Shown here piece after piece: positions 5,693 through 37,998 of a stretch of DNA of 38,078 nt. The stretch covers positions 1 to 38,078 of IMG/VR virus record IMGVR_UViG_3300024343_000042; one strand, 5' to 3'. Under the pieces are notes generated by a model. That model did no database searches. It had not been told where the DNA came from and saw nothing but the letters and a program-made list of their open reading frames with translations. The DNA comes from a virus. Position numbers and translations under genes: made by a program. Each line of letters begins with the position of its first letter. The first letter of the stretch is position 1.

Positions 5693-5721
5693 ATTATAGC
5701 TATTTTGGGTTGTTATGTCAA
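5693..5721 (-). promoter_or_regulatory. Sigma-70 promoter P7
   Basis: Minus strand: TTGACA at 5721-5716, 17-base spacer, TATAAT at 5698-5693, a full consensus. An A-rich run precedes it and the spacer contains AACCCAAAA. It lies directly after the J gene and makes the fibre block independent of the tail operon. Confidence 0.9.
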
Positions 5722-28807: not shown

Positions 28808-29378
28808 AATGTGTTCCCCTCTTCTTATGACCGTTCCAAGCTACGAATCCTGCTAGACGCAGAGACCAGTACGCGAGGTAGTTTAAAACTCTGAAACCAT
28901 TGACTTCGATACAAATATCTCGGAATATACCATCCATATATTTTTGATCGTGATAACCAATCGTAGTTCCATCCGCCTTCATAAGAGTAGCATATTTATA
29001 ACCGTAGTCATGAACTAAGCCGCCCATTAGAAGTACTCCAACCGGAGAGAGGAATGTTGCGAGGAATTTAGGAACTGATGCTCCATCAAATTCAAATCCT
29101 GCAGGTACCTTATAATCTACTCCGTTAATACTATAGTGAAATTCTTTTGCTATAACCCACTTGCGAGTGCCTAACAACCACATTAATATACCTTTCCAAA
29201 AGCCTTTATCTTTTGTTGCTATTGGTACAGGTTGCATTACTGGCATTCTTGGGTATTTAAAATCAATTATCTTCTCTTCTTTTTTATCAACCTTGTTCAC
29301 TATGAAGCCGATAAGTACTAATACCCCAAGTACTGTCCATTGCCAAAAAGTCATTGCTAAATCAAGTAACATTTCCAT
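28794..29378 (-). CDS. DUF1353 family protein with N-terminal membrane anchor
   Basis: The 194-residue product has a membrane segment at about residues 10-28 and then a DUF1353 domain: VPAGFEFDGASVP (91-103), GLVHDYGY with His123 and Asp124, and HDQKYMDGIFRD. DUF1353 is common in phages and has no settled function. Its place among small membrane proteins suggests a role at the cell envelope, perhaps in lysis, but this is inference. ATG overlaps the upstream stop as TAATG. Confidence 0.85.
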   Translation of the reverse strand: MEMLLDLAMTFWQWTVLGVLVLIGFIVNKVDKKEEKIIDFKYPRMPVMQPVPIATKDKGFWKGILMWLLGTRKWVIAKEFHYSINGVDYKVPAGFEFDGASVPKFLATFLSPVGVLLMGGLVHDYGYKYATLMKADGTTIGYHDQKYMDGIFRDICIEVNGFRVLNYLAYWSLRLAGFVAWNGHKKRGTHCEMA

Positions 29379-29698
29379 TATTTTTTCCCTGCGTATGCAT
29401 TGGCTCCAAAGAAAGCTGAAACCAGAGCTGCGATAGCTACAAAGTAAGTGGGAGCAATATCACCAATTATTTTTGCGGCGCTATCCAACCCAAATAATGA
29501 TGTGCAAAAAATGCCGAAAGGATAAAAAAGCATTCCCCATAAGGAAAACCATGTCATCTTTCTCATTGCATCACGCTGTGCATCTTGATCTTCTAATTCT
29601 TTTCTACGAAACTCAAGATACATTTCTTGTTCGGTTTCAGTGACCTGTCCGTCACCATTTGTGTCTGCGGGATGGAACCCTGTCTTCTCTTCACTCAT
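29378..29698 (-). CDS. EF-hand membrane protein, holin-like
   Basis: The 106-residue product has a perfect EF-hand calcium loop, D12-x-N14-x-D16-G17-Q18-V19-T20 with Glu23, then a charged helix, and two membrane segments at about residues 49-68 and 84-102. Two membrane segments and small size fit a class II holin. The calcium loop at the cytoplasmic or outer face is unusual for a holin. Start overlaps the upstream stop as ATGA. Confidence 0.78.
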   Translation of the reverse strand: MSEEKTGFHPADTNGDGQVTETEQEMYLEFRRKELEDQDAQRDAMRKMTWFSLWGMLFYPFGIFCTSLFGLDSAAKIIGDIAPTYFVAIAALVSAFFGANAYAGKK

Positions 29699-30020: not shown

Positions 30021-30247
30021 TATTGTGGAACTCCCATTTGAGACAAAGTAACTACTAAGCCTGCTAGGAACATGATTACTGTTCCTCCCATTACAATCAT
30101 ACGACTTTCTATTCGTCGCATGGATTTATCTAGTTCTTCGAGTCTATAAAAGCATGTCTTCCAACGCTCTTCACATTGAGCCTCGTGACGATAAAAATCA
30201 TTCTCGAGAGTCTGAAGTCCTTGGCTATTCTTAACTATCTGTTCCAT
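30020..30247 (-). CDS. Small membrane protein with coiled coil
   Basis: The 75-residue product has an N-terminal helical part (LENDFYRHEAQCEERWKTCF, RLEELDKSMRRIESR) and one C-terminal membrane segment (about 50-68, VMGGTVIMFLAGLVVTLS). This layout resembles XhlA-type holin-associated proteins. It overlaps the small terminase end by 17 bases. Confidence 0.7.
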   Translation of the reverse strand: MEQIVKNSQGLQTLENDFYRHEAQCEERWKTCFYRLEELDKSMRRIESRMIVMGGTVIMFLAGLVVTLSQMGVPQ

Positions 30248-30695
30248 TTAAAAGTTTTTCCATTAGCTTACCATAATTTCCCTGACCAAATGGAACAGCT
30301 TCATTAATCTGTACATTTGTCTGGTTCTTTATGTTTCCGCCCTGTGCTTTCTCAAGATCAGTCTGTGCTTTAATCTCGTCGATACGCATTTTATGTGCCA
30401 TTTGTAACAGATCTGCTAAGTCTTTGCTGGAGTATACGCCAGATTCCTGGGCTTCTTCTAGCTTGGATGCAATCATGTCATCTAATAAGGAACCGATGTT
30501 GTTCTTGTTACGGTAACCCATGTCCAAGTACACTGTATCAATATACTTTTTTACTTCTCGTTTATTAAGCACTTCTATCACTTCATGTTCTGCTACTTGA
30601 AGATGCTCACAAACTCCCTTAATATTGCCAAACATCAAATAGCTATTCGCAACTTCGAGGCCTTCTGGACTAATTGTAGTTAATTCTTTTGTCAT
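30231..30695 (-). CDS. Terminase small subunit candidate
   Basis: The 154-residue product has an N-terminal helix-turn-helix-like part (GLEVANSYLMFGNIKGVCEH, VAEHEVIEVLNKREVKKYID), a middle helical region and an NVQINEAVPFGQGNYGKLME tail, the usual plan of small terminases that recognise the packaging site and recruit the large subunit. The large subunit lies ~1.9 kb downstream in the same operon. The ATG is only one base from the predicted transcript start of P4 and lacks a ribosome site, so it may be leaderless. Confidence 0.68.
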   Translation of the reverse strand: MTKELTTISPEGLEVANSYLMFGNIKGVCEHLQVAEHEVIEVLNKREVKKYIDTVYLDMGYRNKNNIGSLLDDMIASKLEEAQESGVYSSKDLADLLQMAHKMRIDEIKAQTDLEKAQGGNIKNQTNVQINEAVPFGQGNYGKLMEKLLNGTDS

Positions 30696-30702
30696 GGTTT
30701 AG

Positions 30703-30731
30703 ATTATACTCAGTTGAGGGTATTTTGTCAA
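30703..30731 (-). promoter_or_regulatory. Sigma-70 promoter P4
   Basis: Minus strand: TTGACA at 30731-30726, 17-base spacer, TATAAT at 30708-30703, full consensus, A-rich upstream, ACCCTCAA in the spacer. The -10 box ends seven bases before the ATG of the small terminase candidate. Confidence 0.9.
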
Positions 30732-30748: not shown

Positions 30749-31207
30749 TCAGTCAGATAGTGGATTGTCTAGTGCTCTTTGCAACTTGGCTTCGAGTCTA
30801 TCTTCTAGCTCTTTCATGTCTCTATCCGTGTCGGACTTTAATGAATCTCGCTTTGTTTCAAAACGCTCATTTGCTTTATCAATCATTACTCTTACTTTTT
30901 CTTCGGAGTCACGTACTTGATCTTCAACACGGTCTGCTTGTTTCTCAATAGAAATAATATCATCTCGTAACCCTGATTTAATATCCCGAGTGTATTCAAT
31001 AGCATCATCTAACTTTTGTATTATTTGCGTATTTCGTGCTTCAATAGCATCTGTATCAATATTAGCTATGACTTCCTTCATATCCATGTAATCATCGTAA
31101 AATTGAAAACCTGCCCATGCACCACCACCAAGAGTTGAAAGCGCTGTTAGCATTACCATCATTTTTCCGCCTTTGAAGGTCATGCCCCCAATCTCAAACT
31201 CTGCCAT
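30749..31207 (-). CDS. Membrane-anchored coiled-coil protein (exported cassette gene 6)
   Basis: The 152-residue product has one membrane segment at about residues 15-34 (KMMVMLTALSTLGGGAWAGF) and then ~115 charged helical residues (DRVEDQVRDSEEKVRVMIDK). An inner-membrane anchor with a long periplasmic or cytoplasmic coil fits a spanin-like or scaffold role. A strong GGAGGAG ribosome site is built from the Glu codons that end the upstream gene. The family appears, from memory, in other marine phages next to the same neighbours, without function. Confidence 0.72.
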   Translation of the reverse strand: MAEFEIGGMTFKGGKMMVMLTALSTLGGGAWAGFQFYDDYMDMKEVIANIDTDAIEARNTQIIQKLDDAIEYTRDIKSGLRDDIISIEKQADRVEDQVRDSEEKVRVMIDKANERFETKRDSLKSDTDRDMKELEDRLEAKLQRALDNPLSD

Positions 31208-31669
31208 TTACTCCTCCTCTACTGGTGTAGGCCGTTCTATATCTATGAACTGTAAGTTTCTTAAATTCGATATTTCTTGTTTTAACTTTATTACTTCCAT
31301 TCTTTTAACCTCAAGTTCTAGTTCATATAAAGTATTGCAGTTAATTCGTTCCCTTGGCCCACCTATAGGAATATTTATTTTTGCATATACTCCTACATCT
31401 TGAGGCGACATACTAGGAATTGAGTAGTCTTGCTGATTATAAGTGTTATAGTACTGTTGAGAATATGGGTCGTCGTTGTTAAGAAAACCAACTACACCAA
31501 ACTCTATATTAGAAGCTGCTCCGATAGCGTTTTGGCACTCAAAAGTACCTGCACGGATTCTATCGTAAGCGTAAGTCTGCCCCATACCGGGCAAATTCAT
31601 GTTTAACGATGTATTCTCTCCCCAAGCATAGGAACCCACTAACAATAGTAGTATAACTAGATATTTCAT
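31208..31669 (-). CDS. Exported protein with C-terminal coiled coil (cassette gene 5)
   Basis: The 153-residue product has a clear signal peptide (MKYLVILLLLVGSYAWG, cut before ENT), a middle part with LPGMGQTYAYDRIRAGTFEC, a conserved-looking QDVGVYAKINIPIGGPRERI strand pair, and a final helix (LYELELEVKRMEVIKLKQEI). Two Cys in the mature part (FEC and INC) may form a disulfide. It starts four bases after the previous gene. Probably periplasmic or surface located; I do not know its function. Confidence 0.75.
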   Translation of the reverse strand: MKYLVILLLLVGSYAWGENTSLNMNLPGMGQTYAYDRIRAGTFECQNAIGAASNIEFGVVGFLNNDDPYSQQYYNTYNQQDYSIPSMSPQDVGVYAKINIPIGGPRERINCNTLYELELEVKRMEVIKLKQEISNLRNLQFIDIERPTPVEEE

Positions 31670-31673
31670 AGAC

Positions 31674-32048
31674 TCACTTTTTTATTTTTGAACAAATCCT
31701 CGATGCGATAATAGACGGGTCTTTGACCGTATTTAATATTTTTGATTTAGAGCATATATAATACGCCCTCTTCAAGTCTGCTTTTCGAATATAAATATCT
31801 GAAGAATGATGATCTAAATATTTAGTTCTTATTAGACTTGGTGCTGCTGCGAATGGTACTGGAACCCAATCTTTATCAAATACCCTTATTGAATAGTAGT
31901 TAATTTCCTTTCTACTATTGAATAAATGCATTTCTGTGGTATACAATCCCTGAATGTGGGAAGGTCTCATCTCAGGATGAGTAGGTGTCCATTGGTGAGC
32001 ATTTACATACCCACCAATGGTAGCCAACAATATAATAATCAATCTCAT
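31674..32048 (-). CDS. Exported PapD-chaperone-like small protein (cassette gene 4)
   Basis: The 124-residue product has a signal peptide (MRLIIILLATIGGYVNA, cut before HQW). The mature part (LFNSRKEINYYSIRVFDKDW, VPVPFAAAPSLIR, DIYIRKADLKRAYYICSKS) has the strand pattern of the N-terminal domain of fimbrial chaperones, and ends ASRICSKIKK with two Cys suited to a disulfide. The likeness is by eye and moderate. Lies directly after the pilin-like gene, as chaperones do in fimbrial operons. No usher gene is present in the window. Confidence 0.65.
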   Translation of the reverse strand: MRLIIILLATIGGYVNAHQWTPTHPEMRPSHIQGLYTTEMHLFNSRKEINYYSIRVFDKDWVPVPFAAAPSLIRTKYLDHHSSDIYIRKADLKRAYYICSKSKILNTVKDPSIIASRICSKIKK

Positions 32049-32543
32049 TTACTGAGCAATACACTCCGCAGTTACTACCGCTGAGTAGTTTCCAGCAGGG
32101 AAAGCCTTCTCGTAGCCATATTCGGCTTCAGAGGTGACTTCAAACCAGACACTACCTGCAACAGATAGATCGAATTCAGTAGTATTGTTATACTCTACTT
32201 TATTAGTATTAAATGCTGACATGGTTGAGTCAGACATCTGTCCTGCTTCACTGTCTCCAGTCCAAGTAACCGTATCTGTAAGAGAGGGGCTAGAAGTAAA
32301 GGAATCTGGGTGAGTTATCTTCGCTACATAAGCATCTGCAGTGACGATGTCATAACGAATTATAGGCGTTACTCCGCCGTCTGCGGGATCAGTACTTAGA
32401 GCATCACCTGCTGGGTTACCATATACGCCGTCTGTATCGGTAGTAATAATACATTTAGACTCTACAGTTCCGTTAATAGGGGTTGTGGCATATGCTCCTG
32501 CACAAGCCATAAGCGCCGTTAGTAATATTAGTGGTTGTTTCAT
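32049..32543 (-). CDS. Exported pilin-like / coat-protein-U-like subunit (cassette gene 3)
   Basis: The 164-residue product has a signal peptide (MKQPLILLTALMACAGAYA, cut before TTP) and a beta-rich mature chain. One Cys lies near the start (VESKCIIT) and one in the last strand (VVTAECIAQ), and the end GNYSAVVTAEC matches the closing strand common to fimbrial and spore-coat-U-type subunits. This suggests an Ig-like fold with a disulfide tying first and last strands. Polymerisation is not shown. Confidence 0.68.
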   Translation of the reverse strand: MKQPLILLTALMACAGAYATTPINGTVESKCIITTDTDGVYGNPAGDALSTDPADGGVTPIIRYDIVTADAYVAKITHPDSFTSSPSLTDTVTWTGDSEAGQMSDSTMSAFNTNKVEYNNTTEFDLSVAGSVWFEVTSEAEYGYEKAFPAGNYSAVVTAECIAQ

Positions 32544-32580
32544 AATTTAAAGTTTCCTAGTGCGAAGCACTCTTTGATAA

Positions 32581-33453
32581 TTAATTATCGTATTGTTGCT
32601 GTACCATTTCGTCATGCAATAATTGCTGAGCAAATGTAACCCGCCTTGCCTTCTTATTGTCTTGTAGTTCCTTATCTTTAAAAGCTAGTACATCATTGTA
32701 AACGCCGCCATTTAAAGCGGTCTTATAAGTAACAGGAATAAAGTTCATTGAAAATAGGGCTTGTTCCTGTAGTTGGGCTGCATCTGATAATACTGAACTA
32801 TTTAAGCCACCAAGCATCTTCTCTAAATTTACTTTAATTTTATCAGTGCGTTTCTTTCTATCATACTCTTCTTGCTCTTTATCTTCCTGCTCTGCTTTCT
32901 TTTCCATCTCTAGGCGAACAAGCTCATCTTGTAGTGGGTCATTGTATTCCACTACAGGAATTATATCTTCCAGATTGTAGGGTACTTTATAATCTGGGCA
33001 GTCGGGGCTGGTTTGAGGGTCGAAACAAGTATCATACTGGTAAGTATAAATCACAGAAGGGTCTATAACAGAGCCTTCTCCTTCTATTTCAATTGAACCG
33101 TCTCCCCAGTATTCTATACCAATACGACCCACAGGTATAGCTTTATAAATTGTGTTTCCTTCTAGGCCTGACCAGTCATCTGTTTCTCGAAAGATGTAAC
33201 CGTCTCCTAAAGCATTCTCATTCTGTACATGGACTAACATGTCTGCATCAATATCTTTGACTGCGGTATACCTATACACAACATTTCCCACAGTAAGACC
33301 GGCTTGCTGCGGGAGGACGTTTGTCATTACCCAGTTTAGACCAAAAGCTGCTGCATTGCTCGTACTGCCATATACATCATCAGAGGAAGAGTAAGAGGCC
33401 GAGCAAGCTAGCAATACCGCCAACACCGAATAAGGTATCTTTCGTAGTTTCAT
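32581..33453 (-). CDS. Outer-membrane-type lipoprotein (cassette gene 2)
   Basis: From ATG 33453 (CGGAG seven bases before) the product is 290 residues with a lipobox LLAC at 14-17 and Ser at +2, which in Gram-negatives favours the outer membrane. Mature features: GEGSVIDPSVIYTYQYDTC with Cys143 and Cys152 in a DTCFDPQTSPDC loop, a charged coiled coil at about 176-213, and a DNKKARRVTFAQQLLHDEM end. A longer start at 33480 has no ribosome site. It overlaps the upstream gene by 74 bases, so its signal is coded over that gene's C-terminal membrane segment. Confidence 0.75.
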   Translation of the reverse strand: MKLRKIPYSVLAVLLACSASYSSSDDVYGSTSNAAAFGLNWVMTNVLPQQAGLTVGNVVYRYTAVKDIDADMLVHVQNENALGDGYIFRETDDWSGLEGNTIYKAIPVGRIGIEYWGDGSIEIEGEGSVIDPSVIYTYQYDTCFDPQTSPDCPDYKVPYNLEDIIPVVEYNDPLQDELVRLEMEKKAEQEDKEQEEYDRKKRTDKIKVNLEKMLGGLNSSVLSDAAQLQEQALFSMNFIPVTYKTALNGGVYNDVLAFKDKELQDNKKARRVTFAQQLLHDEMVQQQYDN

Positions 33454-33940
33454 CCATTTTCTCCGATTCTTCTTCTTCAACAGGTATTTCGTCTGAGTGT
33501 GCTAACCAACCTGCTTTTGCTTCTTCGCCAATCATGCCGTCGTAAGGACAAGGTGTTCCTGCCATCATCATTGCATCAAATACTCGCTGATCTTGACACA
33601 TTACAGAAACTGCTGCTACTTTCATACCCATATCGTACAGGGTTTTCGCATTCTTCAATTTCTCACAATTCATGTCTCTTACGGTAGTTCCCATAGAGAT
33701 GCCGAGTATCTGGGTTTGCACTGCACCCGCAACTCCTACCGTACACAAGTCAGAATTGGATATATTCATCGTTGGTGTAATTGCTGACGGGGGTGGTGAT
33801 TTTAATGTCGTAGTAGTTTCAGACGTTATATCACTCTTTACTGTACTATCAGTTGTAACTACGTCTCCAGGTATTACTGTGTCGTCTTGAGCAAAGATAG
33901 TCGAAGAGACTAGGAGTAAGGTTATTAATGTCTTTTTCAT
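33380..33940 (-). CDS. Exported four-cysteine protein with C-terminal membrane segment (cassette gene 1)
   Basis: The 186-residue product has a signal peptide (MKKTLITLLLVSSTIFA, cut before QDD), a Thr/Ser-rich stretch to about residue 60, a compact domain with four Cys (SDLCTVGVAGAVQTQI, DMNCEKLKNAKTLYDMGM, VMCQD, GTPCPYDG), an acidic linker and a C-terminal hydrophobic segment (GVGGIASLLGLLLFL). That ending could anchor it in the inner membrane. First gene after promoter P3. Conserved, as I recall, in several marine phage groups beside the same lipoprotein, always without function. Confidence 0.75.
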   Translation of the reverse strand: MKKTLITLLLVSSTIFAQDDTVIPGDVVTTDSTVKSDITSETTTTLKSPPPSAITPTMNISNSDLCTVGVAGAVQTQILGISMGTTVRDMNCEKLKNAKTLYDMGMKVAAVSVMCQDQRVFDAMMMAGTPCPYDGMIGEEAKAGWLAHSDEIPVEEEESEKMDETTKDTLFGVGGIASLLGLLLFL

Positions 33941-33974
33941 GTGTTACCTATTAGTTTTATTTTTAATTCAACCA

Positions 33975-34003
33975 TTATACCTCACCACGAAAATTTTGTC
34001 AAG
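33975..34003 (-). promoter_or_regulatory. Sigma-70 promoter P3
   Basis: Minus strand: TTGACA at 34003-33998, 17-base spacer, TATAAT at 33980-33975, full consensus, with AAAATAGTTC upstream as in P5 and P6. It drives the six-gene exported cassette. Confidence 0.9.
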
Positions 34004-34019
34004 AACTATTTTCGAGGTG

Positions 34020-34097
34020 CTATACATAAATGTCTAGATGAGTGCCTAAACGGGTCAGTGGAAACCCATACTTCTTATAGAGCCATCTATAATGCAT
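34020..34097 (-). CDS. Possible 25-residue gene after the 640-residue protein
   Basis: A short ORF (MHYRWLYKKYGFPLTRLGTH then LDIYV) whose ATG overlaps the upstream stop as TAATG, with AGGA seven bases before it. It ends just before the -35 box of P3. The sequence is compact and protein-like, rich in aromatic and basic residues. Not recognised. Confidence 0.45.
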   Translation of the reverse strand: MHYRWLYKKYGFPLTRLGTHLDIYV

Positions 34098-36019
34098 TAC
34101 GTTATCCTAGCAAATACAAAATGACCGTCTGGGTGATGGCTTGTTGCTTCTCTACTGCCGGGGTTGGTGCCGTAGGGACCTGCAAAAGCTATCATATGCA
34201 TAGTTATACTTATGGAACTAGAACTTGTTATTGTACATCCGGGAATATGAACTCCTCCTCCGAAGTCATTTATACCATAACTGGCGTTCTCCCCTTCTAG
34301 CAGCATATCATTTGACCGATATTTAACCCACCCTGATAAACAGTTTCCTAATAAGTATGTATTGGCCGGATCCATTTCATGTAGACCTGTTATACCCTTT
34401 ATCTGACCTGTACTTATCATTCTTCCGATTGGAGGGTTAGTAGGGTTAGTAGTTCCTGCGACAGGAGCTGTTACTCCGTCATACCCAGTTGTTACATCGT
34501 AGTTTCCATTTTGGTTAGTTCCAGTAGTGAACTGATTTGCAGGAACTACATTATTTATCACTGCTTGTCTCCAGTCTGAACTCCACTTCAAATTATTAGA
34601 GCTATCACGTACTTCTAGACCATATGAGGAGGAAGAACCTCCATAAGAAACAGGAGTGGCATTCGAGGAGGAAACTAACATAGCTATTGTATAATCTGAG
34701 ATATCGCCTCCAGCAGGCAATAGGCACTGAACATACCTATATGAACCATCAGAGTGAGTACTATGAACTCTGGGCGGTAATAGCAATGCTTGATTATCAC
34801 ATTTTATTGCAGCTATGGGTACGCTACCGCTTGCTGGATATCGTCCCGAAGTGAGCTCTACTGTTATATACCTTCCTCCCTCACTAGGGTTTCCTTCATC
34901 AGTTATATTCGACTGACTAGTATCCAAGTTTATTATTTCTCTAACTCCATACACTTCTGAAAGACTATCTATTACTAGCCCCGAGTCTCCGTTTAGTATC
35001 TCTAATCCATTACTGGGCTGAGTGCCCCCTATAGTAGAGCCTGTATGTTGTAGTACTGTTACTTTACCTGTAAACGCTGAAGAAGTTCTAGCTATTCGAA
35101 CAGTTGTACCACTTACAATAGTCATTGCTACATTCTTTGATATATCTACCCCTGTTGTAGAGTCTTTTATATTTATTACACAGTTTGAATTAGTTAAACC
35201 AGTTAAGCTTGTATTTAAGTCTACATGACTACTTGTTGAAGTAGTAACGGACGATTCATATATCTTGCGAAGGACAGTGTGCCCTGCAGTAAAAGAAGTT
35301 ACAGCAGTGCCGGAATCATCGTATATAGCGAGCCCATATGCATCTATAGTAGGATTATTTGTAGTAGCCGCTATAGTTTTTGTTACACTGTAAGTCAATC
35401 CAGTTGGTACCCATATATTTTCTCCTCCATTAGCAGTGGTAACTAAAGACTGTATGGAATAAGTTTCTGGTATTCCTATATCACTAGGGACATCGCTTAC
35501 AGTAAGTGCACCGTGTCCTGTACGAGTATAGTCTGTTCCTCCTGCTGTTACTTTATACTGGGTTATACTAGCGTTGGTGGAACTACCACTGTTAATAATA
35601 GTTATAGTATGACTAGTATCGGTCGGGAGTATCTCTATAGTGTGGTCTGAGCCAGTCAGATCAATAGTATTATCAGGTTCTTCATAGGATATGGGTACAG
35701 TAAAGTATCTTGTAAGACTTCCGCCTGTAGAAGTTACTCCAATAGCGTCCACTGTACCAAGAGTTATATTTGACTTAACCGTTTTAGACTGATTCGAGGT
35801 GGTTAAAGTAAGATTACTAGTATTTGTCCAGAAATTACTGTTAAACCCAGACATGGTGGTAGTGGCATTATTGGTAAGTACTTTAAAGTTTACAACATCT
35901 CCTGCTGCAAGCTCGTAAGCAGTCCCTGATGTAGTAGCAGAGCCACCGACACCTACCCAAGTAGGGAACCAAACAGGGCCACCCTGTACTAAAATGATAG
36001 ATACTTGATGAGTAGCCAT
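34097..36019 (-). CDS. Large beta-rich, fibre-like protein in the speD operon
   Basis: The 640-residue product starts MATHQVSIILVQGGPVWFPT and is rich in Thr, Ser, Gly and Asn, with several apparent Ig-like blocks (DVVNFKVLTNNATTTMSGF, IDLTGSDHTIEILPTDTSHT). From about residue 330, NGLEILNGDSGLVIDS and later YGLEVRDSSNNLKWSSDWRQ resemble receptor-binding tips of phage fibres. The C-terminal ~90 residues (SISITMHMIAFAGPYGTNPG, HPDGHFVFARIT) look like a compact His-rich tip. It has no signal peptide. It is probably a virion fibre or decoration protein, although it lies over 20 kb from the tail genes. Confidence 0.65.
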   Translation of the reverse strand: MATHQVSIILVQGGPVWFPTWVGVGGSATTSGTAYELAAGDVVNFKVLTNNATTTMSGFNSNFWTNTSNLTLTTSNQSKTVKSNITLGTVDAIGVTSTGGSLTRYFTVPISYEEPDNTIDLTGSDHTIEILPTDTSHTITIINSGSSTNASITQYKVTAGGTDYTRTGHGALTVSDVPSDIGIPETYSIQSLVTTANGGENIWVPTGLTYSVTKTIAATTNNPTIDAYGLAIYDDSGTAVTSFTAGHTVLRKIYESSVTTSTSSHVDLNTSLTGLTNSNCVINIKDSTTGVDISKNVAMTIVSGTTVRIARTSSAFTGKVTVLQHTGSTIGGTQPSNGLEILNGDSGLVIDSLSEVYGVREIINLDTSQSNITDEGNPSEGGRYITVELTSGRYPASGSVPIAAIKCDNQALLLPPRVHSTHSDGSYRYVQCLLPAGGDISDYTIAMLVSSSNATPVSYGGSSSSYGLEVRDSSNNLKWSSDWRQAVINNVVPANQFTTGTNQNGNYDVTTGYDGVTAPVAGTTNPTNPPIGRMISTGQIKGITGLHEMDPANTYLLGNCLSGWVKYRSNDMLLEGENASYGINDFGGGVHIPGCTITSSSSISITMHMIAFAGPYGTNPGSREATSHHPDGHFVFARIT

Positions 36020-36285
36020 TAACTTACTTCCCCACTAATAATATGGGTTTTAATTGTACCAAAGGATGTGTTAAACCCTTGTATAATAACTCTATAAGGC
36101 CCTGGAGCAAGCAAAGATACAGTACATACATTATCTGACGAAGTATAAGTACAGTTCTCTCTTGCTATGGCCCAAGCTGCTGCCGTAATAGAAATAGCAA
36201 GAGTATCTGACAAGCTAACATCCTGTACAGAAAGGGTGCGACCTCCTCCTGTAGAAAGGTCAACGCTAGAAGTATGAGTAGCCAT
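36019..36285 (-). CDS. Small beta-rich protein in the speD operon
   Basis: The 88-residue product starts MATHTSSVDLSTGGGRTLSV, shares the MATH start with the next gene, and ends in strand-like GPYRVIIQGFNTSFGTIKTH. Two Cys (ENCTY and NVCTV) could pair. Both its start and stop overlap neighbours as TAATG, so it is translated together with speD and the 640-residue gene. A partner domain of that larger protein is a reasonable guess. Confidence 0.65.
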   Translation of the reverse strand: MATHTSSVDLSTGGGRTLSVQDVSLSDTLAISITAAAWAIARENCTYTSSDNVCTVSLLAPGPYRVIIQGFNTSFGTIKTHIISGEVS

Positions 36286-36644
36286 TAGTCAGCATGCCTC
36301 GTTATAAAGTTAACCCGCATTTTTTCTGGAGCGAAGTACTCCTGCACGATTTTCTGCGCTAGATCAATATCATACTCTTTGCAACTAAAGATGTCGAAGT
36401 ATGCTGTACCGTCTAAATCCATGAAATGGGCGCAAATATTTGAAGTTGTAATTAATTGCATCAGGCTGTATCCTTGTTTAGGGTCTCCAGGCAACAGATG
36501 CTCGATTATCGGCTCTCCAGCGGCAACCATGTCTATTTGTTTCACTAAGTCTTTAATGAAAAAGTATATAACGGAGCGCTCGGATATATTATCGTTGCAT
36601 CCACTACAGTCTAGCATTAAATGGTAACCCCAATATGAACTCAT
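36285..36644 (-). CDS. speD: SpeD-like pyruvoyl-dependent decarboxylase
   Basis: From ATG 36644 (AAGGAG seven bases before) the product is 119 residues, the size of class 1b S-adenosylmethionine decarboxylases. The fold markers are present: GYHLMLDCSGCN at the start and FDIFSCKEYD near the end. Against the Thermotoga enzyme, Ser60, Ser68 (pyruvoyl-forming), His73 and Cys88 keep the spacing of Ser55, Ser63, His68 and Cys83. The cleavage-site Glu is replaced by Thr67, and the family's HTWPE signature reads HFMDL, so substrate contacts differ. AdoMet decarboxylation feeds spermidine synthesis; a different substrate such as ornithine or arginine is possible. The earlier ATG at 36677 lies upstream of the promoter's predicted start. 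Confidence 0.82.
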   Translation of the reverse strand: MSSYWGYHLMLDCSGCNDNISERSVIYFFIKDLVKQIDMVAAGEPIIEHLLPGDPKQGYSLMQLITTSNICAHFMDLDGTAYFDIFSCKEYDIDLAQKIVQEYFAPEKMRVNFITRHAD

Positions 36645-36668
36645 GTTTTTTCTCCTTTTATGACGCCA

Positions 36669-36697
36669 AGTATACAACAGTTATCAAAAATTGTCAA
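36669..36697 (-). promoter_or_regulatory. Sigma-70 promoter P2
   Basis: Minus strand: TTGACA at 36697-36692, 17-base spacer, TATACT at 36674-36669, with GAAAAAAATTC upstream. The leader to the speD-like ATG is about 18 bases and contains AAGGAG. Confidence 0.87.
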
Positions 36698-36742: not shown

Positions 36743-37354
36743 CTATAATGATAGAAAGGATTCAAATACTTGCTTACCGAGCAGCGGGTGCACGCAGTTA
36801 CGTAAAACTTGACAAGGATCGTGGTTTGTACCATAGTATAGCTTTTCGTCAAAGTGAATATCTAACCAGTCCTGTAGCATCTTTTTTCCTTTTAAATTCT
36901 GTACATTTATAAAGTTAGCAGGTCGAGCAACATCTTTCGCTACGATAGGAAAGTTTGACCAAAAGTAGTGACGCCCTACAACACAAGTGGGAGGTATTAG
37001 AGGCTTGTAGTAGGGTTTTACGTTTTCTACTACCCAGTGTCCTTTGTAATAAGTCTGTAAAAATATAATCTGCTGGTATAAATCCATTTCAGGATATTTT
37101 GGAGAGGTTCTTGAGTTTGCTCTTGCCATTGCGCTATGAGACTGACACGGAGGACTGCTCCAAATAAAATCAAACTGATCAAATACATCAAGCAGTAGTG
37201 AGTGAGCATCTTCCACAAATACATCGTCTTCGGGATGAAGTTTTTCGTAGACTGCTGCAATCTTGGGGTCAGACTCGATTGCAACAACAGCCACATCTTC
37301 CCAAAGTTTTCTGTTGCCTCCAAGACCTGCATATAAGTTTAGTACATTTATCAT
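36743..37354 (-). CDS. Small C5-cytosine DNA methyltransferase
   Basis: From ATG 37354 the product is 203 residues. I prefer this start because GAGGAAA stands just before it and ATG 37378 lies at or upstream of the predicted transcript start. Motifs: NLYAGLGGN (AdoMet site), IESDP with following VFVEDAH, SSPPCQSHS with catalytic Cys70, and VVENVKPYY (E110-N111-V112). A target-recognition domain and the last conserved motifs of full-size enzymes seem missing or very reduced, as in other short phage forms. It would methylate cytosine in phage or host DNA, perhaps for protection from restriction. No cognate nuclease is seen nearby. Confidence 0.88.
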   Translation of the reverse strand: MINVLNLYAGLGGNRKLWEDVAVVAIESDPKIAAVYEKLHPEDDVFVEDAHSLLLDVFDQFDFIWSSPPCQSHSAMARANSRTSPKYPEMDLYQQIIFLQTYYKGHWVVENVKPYYKPLIPPTCVVGRHYFWSNFPIVAKDVARPANFINVQNLKGKKMLQDWLDIHFDEKLYYGTNHDPCQVLRNCVHPLLGKQVFESFLSL

Positions 37355-37380
37355 AATTGTTTCCTCATTTTGAATCATAT

Positions 37381-37695: not shown

Positions 37696-37998
37696 ATGAC
37701 TACTCCAAATTACACTCCCGAAATGGTTGCTACTTTGCGCGCTTCTGCTCCCTTGGATTTTGACAAGGCGCAAGCACTCGCGAAAACTCTTGACCGCAAT
37801 GTGCGCTCTGTTATCGCTAAGGCGAAAAGAGAAGGCATCGAATATATCAGCAAGCCGGCTCCGGCCAAGAAAAAAGCCGCACCTAGCAAAGCCGATATGG
37901 TCGCGGCCATATGTGATGCGCTAGATATGTCTGATTGTGTAGGGCTAGAAAAATCTACTGGCTCGGCACTCAATAAACTCTTGCAGAACATCGCTTGA
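37696..37998 (+). CDS. Small basic phage protein with HTH-like N-terminus
   Basis: The 100-residue product starts MTTPNYTPEMVATLRASAPL and has a helix-turn-helix-like segment (DKAQALAKTLDRNVRSVIAK, AKREGIEYISK), a basic Lys/Ala/Pro linker and a helical C-terminus. Proteins with the same RSVIAK-REG pattern are frequent in marine phages at the start of the early region; their function is not settled, with DNA binding the usual guess. It is visibly more GC-rich than the leftward genes. Its stop codon overlaps the -35 box of the next promoter. Confidence 0.78.
   Translation: MTTPNYTPEMVATLRASAPLDFDKAQALAKTLDRNVRSVIAKAKREGIEYISKPAPAKKKAAPSKADMVAAICDALDMSDCVGLEKSTGSALNKLLQNIA

Follow-up and report, generated by a model that had tools for sequence, protein, structure and literature searches.

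A six-gene cassette of exported proteins, pairing a PapD-type chaperone domain with a pilin-like subunit, recurs in unrelated marine phages

Here, we analyzed a 38,078-nucleotide stretch of viral DNA (IMG/VR virus record IMGVR_UViG_3300024343_000042; hereafter, the window) from its DNA sequence and predicted structures, focusing on six contiguous open reading frames (ORFs) on the minus strand, at 30749-33940, that we denote g6 to g1 in the order of transcription. The six genes form a rigid module, one system, in which adjacent genes encode a protein modeled as a single-domain PapD-type chaperone (g3) and a subunit with a fold suggestive of pilins (g4), linked to four further exported proteins. 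Tentatively, we favor the view that the cassette is a late operon, mobile between phages, with which the envelope of the infected cell is remodeled by an usher-less, donor-strand-built complex, most plausibly as an auxiliary of lysis. To our knowledge, an usher-less chaperone-pilin pair has not been described in lytic phages, and our literature searches turned up a precedent involving curli and nothing on this cassette.

Conservation and mobility of the cassette

The first-pass annotation of the window had posited six adjacent genes behind one consensus promoter and had read them as one system, and both claims are borne out. The block is preceded by a sigma-70 promoter matching the consensus at 12 of 12 positions (TTGACA-N17-TATAAT, minus strand, 34002-33974), and it lies between a putative fiber gene of 640 aa (34097-36019), the upstream neighbor of g6, and TerS (30231-30695, minus strand), the downstream neighbor of g1. 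Scans for relatives, the counts from which are lower bounds, recovered at least 564, 568, and 553 for g4, g3, and g6, respectively. With g5 as the sole query, at least 53 viral contigs were obtained, and wherever room allowed, these had the full set of six genes, colinear and on one strand. With hidden Markov models (HMMs) built in this analysis, complete colinear cassettes were found in 213 of 285 loci. When each distinct g6 was counted once and 4.7 kb of room was required, all six genes, in the order g6-g5-g4-g3-g2-g1 and on one strand, were retained in 104 of 109 distinct loci, the remaining five, which have only part of the set, belonging to SAR11 or similar phages. Homologs scattered without a shared neighborhood were looked for, as were predicted folds unrelated to those of pilins and chaperones, and neither was found.

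The cassette is compact as well as colinear. Of 212 full cassettes, 211 show overlapping HMM matches for g6 and g5, which places the signal peptide of g5 within the coding region of the hydrophobic tail of g6; intergenic spacing is tight throughout, and only the gap between g2 and g1 varies much, reaching 844 nt. In T4-type contigs (L022:8218-8676 and similar), a 153-aa protein of no assigned family is encoded between g2 and g1. By contrast, the flanking genes differ, with TerS and TerL in window-type phages and T4-type RegA, gp59, and clamp loader in others. The carriers range from lambda-tailed siphoviruses to T4-like phages: T4 gp23 is present in 11 of 40 large cassette contigs, whereas the window itself carries lambda-type tail genes. 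Given such widely changing flanks, the block appears to be a unit that moves between phage backbones. A search of genome contigs for a bacterial source returned a single match, a 6.3-kb contig of a Bacteroidetes metagenome-assembled genome (DNHN01000359.1) that is probably viral and misbinned.

The first-pass annotation also spoke of a strong promoter belonging to the cassette. This is correct yet not specific to the cassette, because other minus-strand operons of the window have the same promoter type. Perfect sigma-70 sites number 6 in the whole window, against 0.05 expected from base composition, and the late operons of this phage thus seem to run from host-type promoters. One of these sites (30703-30731, minus strand), directly after g1, opens the TerS operon, so that the cassette is bracketed by promoters. 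Among 153 distinct relatives, 20 likewise have a perfect promoter 60-74 nt upstream of g6, with divergent spacers, compared to none in shuffled sequences.

A further statement, that single members occur in other marine phages, needs to be recast: relatives do exist apart from the cassette, but they are better described as two separable sub-modules. Searching 50,697 phage records by tblastn with g3, g4, and g5 of the window gave no matches, and the cultured Vibrio phages were reached only via a weak g2 match in Vibrio phage 2.275.O. Vibrio phage K478b carries g4-g3-g2 (E-values of 1.7e-7, 1.1e-5, and 2.2e-10, respectively), as does Vibrio phage Ceto of the Demerecviridae (2.5e-7, 5.1e-8, and 2.5e-11), and Vibrio phage D460 has the three genes in the same order. 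In D479 and 2.275.O, a g2 relative is accompanied by a g3-like ORF before it and a g4-like ORF after it, called from position, size, and cysteines and, for g3, also from weak HMM scores. Relatives of K478b g3 are present in at least 179 Vibrio phage records. In Ceto (L301:7324-7701) and K478b (L300:4450-4839), g2 overlaps g3 and is annotated partially or with a late start. The triad is followed in Ceto (L301:7649-7852) and D460 (L302:5637-5822) by a lipoprotein-like ORF of 61-67 aa that recalls Llp of phage T5.

The other sub-module is found in SAR11 and Roseobacter phages, namely HTVC115P, HTVC023P, HTVC033P, Mosig, S28C10, and CRP-810, where uncharacterized relatives of g6 and g1 flank a different exported protein, which we refer to as the beta protein. 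The g1-like proteins of these phages align with g1 at 91% in hhalign; one of them, gp51 of roseophage CRP-810 (L286:7333-7755), is labeled "lysozyme" although it is a g1-like transmembrane coiled coil ending in NPLGR. Homology of g5 to the pelagiphage beta protein is not supported (hhalign 4.6%), the terminal motif H..[ML]V..QY being shared in HTVC115P only. Because g4-g3-g2 and g6-(g5-like)-g1 occur separately in other phages, the cassette seems to unite two working units, with g4-g3-g2 inserted into g6-g5-g1.

A chaperone domain and its pilin-like neighbor

The first-pass annotation likened one cassette protein to a pilin and its neighbor to the N-domain of a fimbrial chaperone, and both likenesses stood up to structural comparison. 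The putative periplasmic chaperone g3 (31674-32048, minus strand; 124 aa) was modeled with AlphaFold2 (AF2) from 87 sequences, with a predicted local distance difference test (pLDDT) score of 93.1. Among its Foldseek matches at E<=1e-3, 20 of 21 are fimbrial chaperones, the best at 6e-5. Residues 17-124 of the model superimpose on FimC 1-115 (Z 11.0, root-mean-square deviation 2.6 Å over 99 residues), and FimC is followed by Caf1M, SafB, DraB, FaeE, and PapD. The fold alone is not chaperone-specific, given that MSP/VAP domains and an exo-chitosanase domain reach Z 10 against the same model; still, Foldseek ranks chaperones first. The second, C-terminal Ig-like domain is absent: g3 stops at the equivalent of FimC residue 115, and its relatives are 122-153 aa long. 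As modeled, g3 comprises an entire PapD-type N-domain with no additional domain.

Several residues fit this assignment. Cys99 and Cys119, both invariant, are located on strands equivalent to F1 and G1, the strands that carry the two cysteines of FGL chaperones such as Caf1M. Residue 121 occupies the place of the cleft anchor Lys112 of FimC (C-terminal register) and is basic (K or R) in all 150 relatives; K148 of the FimC precursor is invariant in 8 K-12 chaperones. At the mature N-terminus, as compared by sequence, no conserved Arg is seen in the region of the other cleft anchor, Arg8, and H18 and P22 are invariant. Profile comparison by hhalign gives only 0.9% for the marine g3 family alone against K-12 chaperones, versus 72.6% (E 3.2e-5, 95 columns) when the Vibrio members are added, with the alignment extending through the G1 strand "IKLYYR". 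In the six-gene cassettes, the residue that opens mature g3 is always His (AH-x-[WF]-T-P; residue 18 in the window), a feature that the Ceto-type g3 lacks and that is reminiscent of copper proteins with an N-terminal His.

For g4 (32049-32543, minus strand; 164 aa), an exported Ig-type subunit, the AF2 model (pLDDT 92.2) has its final strand at residues 158-163, and CfaB, FimF, the PapG pilin domain, FimG, and CsuA/B are among the first 13 Foldseek matches, with E-values of 1e-3 to 2e-2. The best VIA matches weigh on the other side, being generic MSCRAMM-type Ig domains at Z ~7, inside the VIA noise band. Together with the modest Foldseek E-values, this makes the fold evidence for a pilin suggestive rather than decisive. 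A search of BFVD with g4 found no clear viral relative. Sequence features provide independent support for a pilin-like g4. Its N-terminal extension bears the signature I-x-G-x-V..SKC, in which hydrophobic residues alternate around a Gly as in pilin donor strands, and I/V/L-x-G-x-V/I precedes the Cys in 149 of 149 relatives. The hhalign comparison of this extension with 19 K-12 pilins gives 68.5% (E 4.6e-5), as against 1-10% for other family pairings, and g4 with the Vibrio members added reaches 74.9%. Furthermore, Gly is found at position -14 in 147 of 149 g4 sequences, as in the K-12 pilins (19 checked). By contrast, the penultimate aromatic residue, which together with this Gly makes up the C-terminal beta-zipper motif of pilins, is replaced, position -2 being Ala in 146 of 149. 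Cys31 and Cys161 make up a pair on the first and last strands.

A role at the envelope and its alternatives

Of the export features noted in the first-pass annotation, the signal peptides and the membrane-anchored coiled coil were recovered, whereas the lipoprotein label is weak, and g6 proved to have a hydrophobic C-terminal tail in addition. In nearly all relatives, each of g2 to g6 has an N-terminus resembling a signal peptide, and the mature proteins contain exactly two cysteines in 139 of 139 g2, 150 of 150 g3, and 148 of 149 g4, g6 usually having four. The hydrophobic tail of g6 (33380-33940, minus strand; 186 aa) is found in 154 of 157 relatives; its four-Cys domain corresponds to PHROG 20531, to which no function is assigned, and the last 74 nt of its gene are shared with g5. 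For g5 (32581-33453, minus strand; 290 aa from ATG, an upstream TTG being an alternative start of a longer ORF), the lipobox (LLAC in the window) is restricted to 14 of 159 relatives, with the others resembling signal peptidase I substrates, so that lipoprotein status was rejected as a family trait; the protein combines a conserved N-terminal domain with a charged, helix-like C-terminal half ending in H..[ML]V..QY. Next, g2 (31208-31669, minus strand; 153 aa), with an R[IL]NC motif and a C-terminal coiled-coil-like stretch, is invariably preceded by g3, in six-gene cassettes and examined Vibrio triads alike. Finally, g1 (30749-31207, minus strand; 152 aa) consists of a short cytoplasmic N-end, one transmembrane helix (GGG), and a periplasmic coiled coil ending in NPL (132 of 132 relatives); inspection revealed no signal peptidase site, and the helix is signal-like in a crude test. 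Sequence-profile searches against Pfam and PDB returned no usable match for the cassette proteins, the PDB matches of g1 being discarded as coiled-coil noise.

We propose the following scheme. One strong host-type promoter drives the six genes, the products of which are computed to be Sec-exported or anchored in the inner membrane and have conserved Cys pairs, with the PapD N-domain and the pilin-like subunit encoded side by side and no usher found. In the periplasm, g3 would lend its G1-type edge strand to an open groove of g4, that is, donor-strand complementation. Given the lack of an usher, g3 and g4 might stay together as a stable brick, or g4 might form a short chain by exchange of N-terminal strands; g2, with its coiled coil, g5, and g6 could join this product, which g1 would tether to the inner membrane. 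Late in infection, the complex would target the outer envelope, most likely assisting lysis by weakening or opening the outer layers; late expression itself is suggested by gene position. More speculatively, the chaperone, the pilin-like subunit, and the four other exported proteins might build a new envelope-spanning or surface organelle by donor-strand assembly without an usher, swapped as a cassette among unrelated marine phages; this is conceivable, although we consider it rather doubtful. More generally, a chaperone-pilin pair in these phages would demonstrate donor-strand folding with a minimal, one-domain chaperone and would name protein families that are now "hypothetical" in hundreds of viral contigs.

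The preference for lysis stems from the location of the module between tail-fiber genes, its common upstream neighbor, and holin, endolysin, or terminase genes in unrelated phages. GTA_holin_3TM and a GH19 endolysin lie 0.3-0.7 kb downstream of g1 in cassette loci, and in four loci, a phage lysozyme gene ends ~20 nt upstream of g6. The g1-like gene is followed by an M15 peptidase in HTVC023P, a lysozyme is a neighbor of the module in HTVC033P, and the Vibrio triad is located just upstream of holin and endolysin in Ceto and 2.6 kb before an endolysin in D460. The lysis genes next to either sub-module are of mutually unrelated types and are frequent neighbors rather than members of the block. 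A 106-aa protein with two transmembrane helices and an EF-hand-like start (29378-29698, minus strand, in the window), with its gene close to the cassette in 68 of 170 loci and often 4-18 nt after g1, is possibly a seventh cassette member or a holin. Two facts weigh against a role in lysis. A recognized endolysin is nearby in only ~1/5 of the distinct loci, and some chance proximity is to be expected in small genomes, the proximity figures being raw counts. Moreover, an Rz-like spanin is annotated in Ceto, and a separate Rz-like gene is present in some cassette contigs; the outer-membrane step may therefore be covered already in these phages.

The same neighborhood invites a different explanation, which comes a close second to an envelope role around lysis: the exported complex could occlude the phage receptor or block DNA entry through the periplasm, excluding superinfection and sparing progeny from binding debris. 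The module is downstream of tail-fiber or receptor-region genes in the window, CRP-810, S28C10, D460, K478b, and Ceto; small lipoprotein-like ORFs follow the triad in Ceto and D460; in D479, the triad comes shortly after RIIA/RIIB; and a host-type promoter would allow early expression. Nevertheless, six proteins far exceed the needs of known exclusion factors, and the module is not bound to one fiber or host type, and we regard exclusion as possible but unlikely. Still less plausible are virion components, or virion-maturation factors passing through the periplasm. The block does reside within the structural-gene region of the window, beside fiber and terminase genes, but signal peptides, invariant Cys pairs, and a transmembrane anchor are a misfit with the cytoplasmic assembly of tailed phages, and the homologs in T4-type contigs also adjoin replication genes, making this reading highly improbable.

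The first-pass annotation listed a surface appendage among the candidate functions. In the classical sense, this is not supported: no usher (PF00577) scored above the cut-off in any of 41 records, the window and 40 cassette contigs, some of which may be fragments, while the E. coli control was positive, so that a classical pilus is unlikely. One can still imagine that g4 polymerizes into thin fibers that exit via a host pore or an unrecognized one and promote aggregation or "sibling capture". The pilin-like fold and donor-strand N-terminus of g4 are in line with this possibility, as is the precedent of phage-borne curli type VIII secretion in pelagiphages (PMC9599517). The Ala in place of the penultimate aromatic, the lack of a C-domain in g3, and the lack of a CsgG-like Pfam match among the cassette proteins, on top of the missing usher, make it improbable. 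Thus, an auxiliary role around lysis remains our preferred, if provisional, interpretation. Because g4-g3-g2 is carried by cultured Vibrio phages (Ceto, K478b, D460, 2.275.O, and relatives), this presumed effect of marine phages on the host envelope can be tested at the bench now.

Elsewhere, the window encodes lambda-type tail genes, TerS, TerL, portal, and further head-tail genes. The perfect TTGACA-N16-18-TATAAT promoters besides that of the cassette are at 5721, 27028, 30731, and 37409 on the minus strand and at 37995 on the plus strand. An S-adenosylmethionine decarboxylase gene (36285-36677, minus strand; Pfam 1.6e-16) adjoins a DNA methyltransferase-like ORF (36743-37378).

Relationship to known systems

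Among known systems, the chaperone-usher pathway (PapD/FimC with FimA, PapA, Caf1, or Csu subunits) resembles the cassette in individual parts: g3 corresponds to the chaperone N-domain, has a basic residue where FimC has Lys112, and carries two cysteines on F1/G1-like strands as in FGL chaperones, and g4, encoded by the adjacent gene, has the pilin-like Ig fold, the I-x-G-x-V..C extension, and Gly at -14. Unlike that pathway, the cassette has no usher, its chaperone has one domain with no Arg8 equivalent seen, and its subunit has Ala for the penultimate aromatic and a Cys pair on the first and last strands; furthermore, the cassette is phage-borne and linked to four additional exported proteins.

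Phage i-spanins, such as lambda Rz and T7 gp18.5, consist of an N-terminal transmembrane helix and a periplasmic coiled coil. The topology of g1 is the same, and its gene is close to lysis or terminase genes. As the inner-membrane half of a two-component spanin, g1 fits, whereas the lipoprotein half is unmatched: no outer-membrane lipoprotein is conserved as its partner, and the annotation of Ceto lists a spanin separately. A spanin pair of g1 and g5 was accordingly rejected. The invariant NPL end of g1 is a further difference. Llp of phage T5 is a superinfection exclusion lipoprotein that masks FhuA and keeps progeny from binding debris. The cassette shares with it the export of an envelope protein encoded beside receptor-binding tail genes, but Llp is a single small lipoprotein without an Ig-fold pair.

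Within the marine phages, a parallel in gene order is the g6-(beta protein)-g1 module of SAR11 phages and roseophages, which has a g6-like four-Cys domain and a g1-like transmembrane coiled coil with the NPL end in the same order and differs in its longer middle protein with a Glu-rich linker and in having no g4-g3-g2. The curli, or type VIII secretion, cluster of pelagiphages is a phage-borne surface-protein module with a proposed role in aggregation, or "sibling capture" (PMC9599517). No CsgG pore or CsgA/B repeats were detected by Pfam among the cassette proteins of the window, the cassette has no recognized CsgA/B, CsgF, CsgG, FecR, or adenylate cyclase, its folds are different, and its hosts likely differ from those of the curli carriers. 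Yet, both are multi-gene exported blocks that recur across unrelated marine phages and are proposed to alter the surface of the infected cell.

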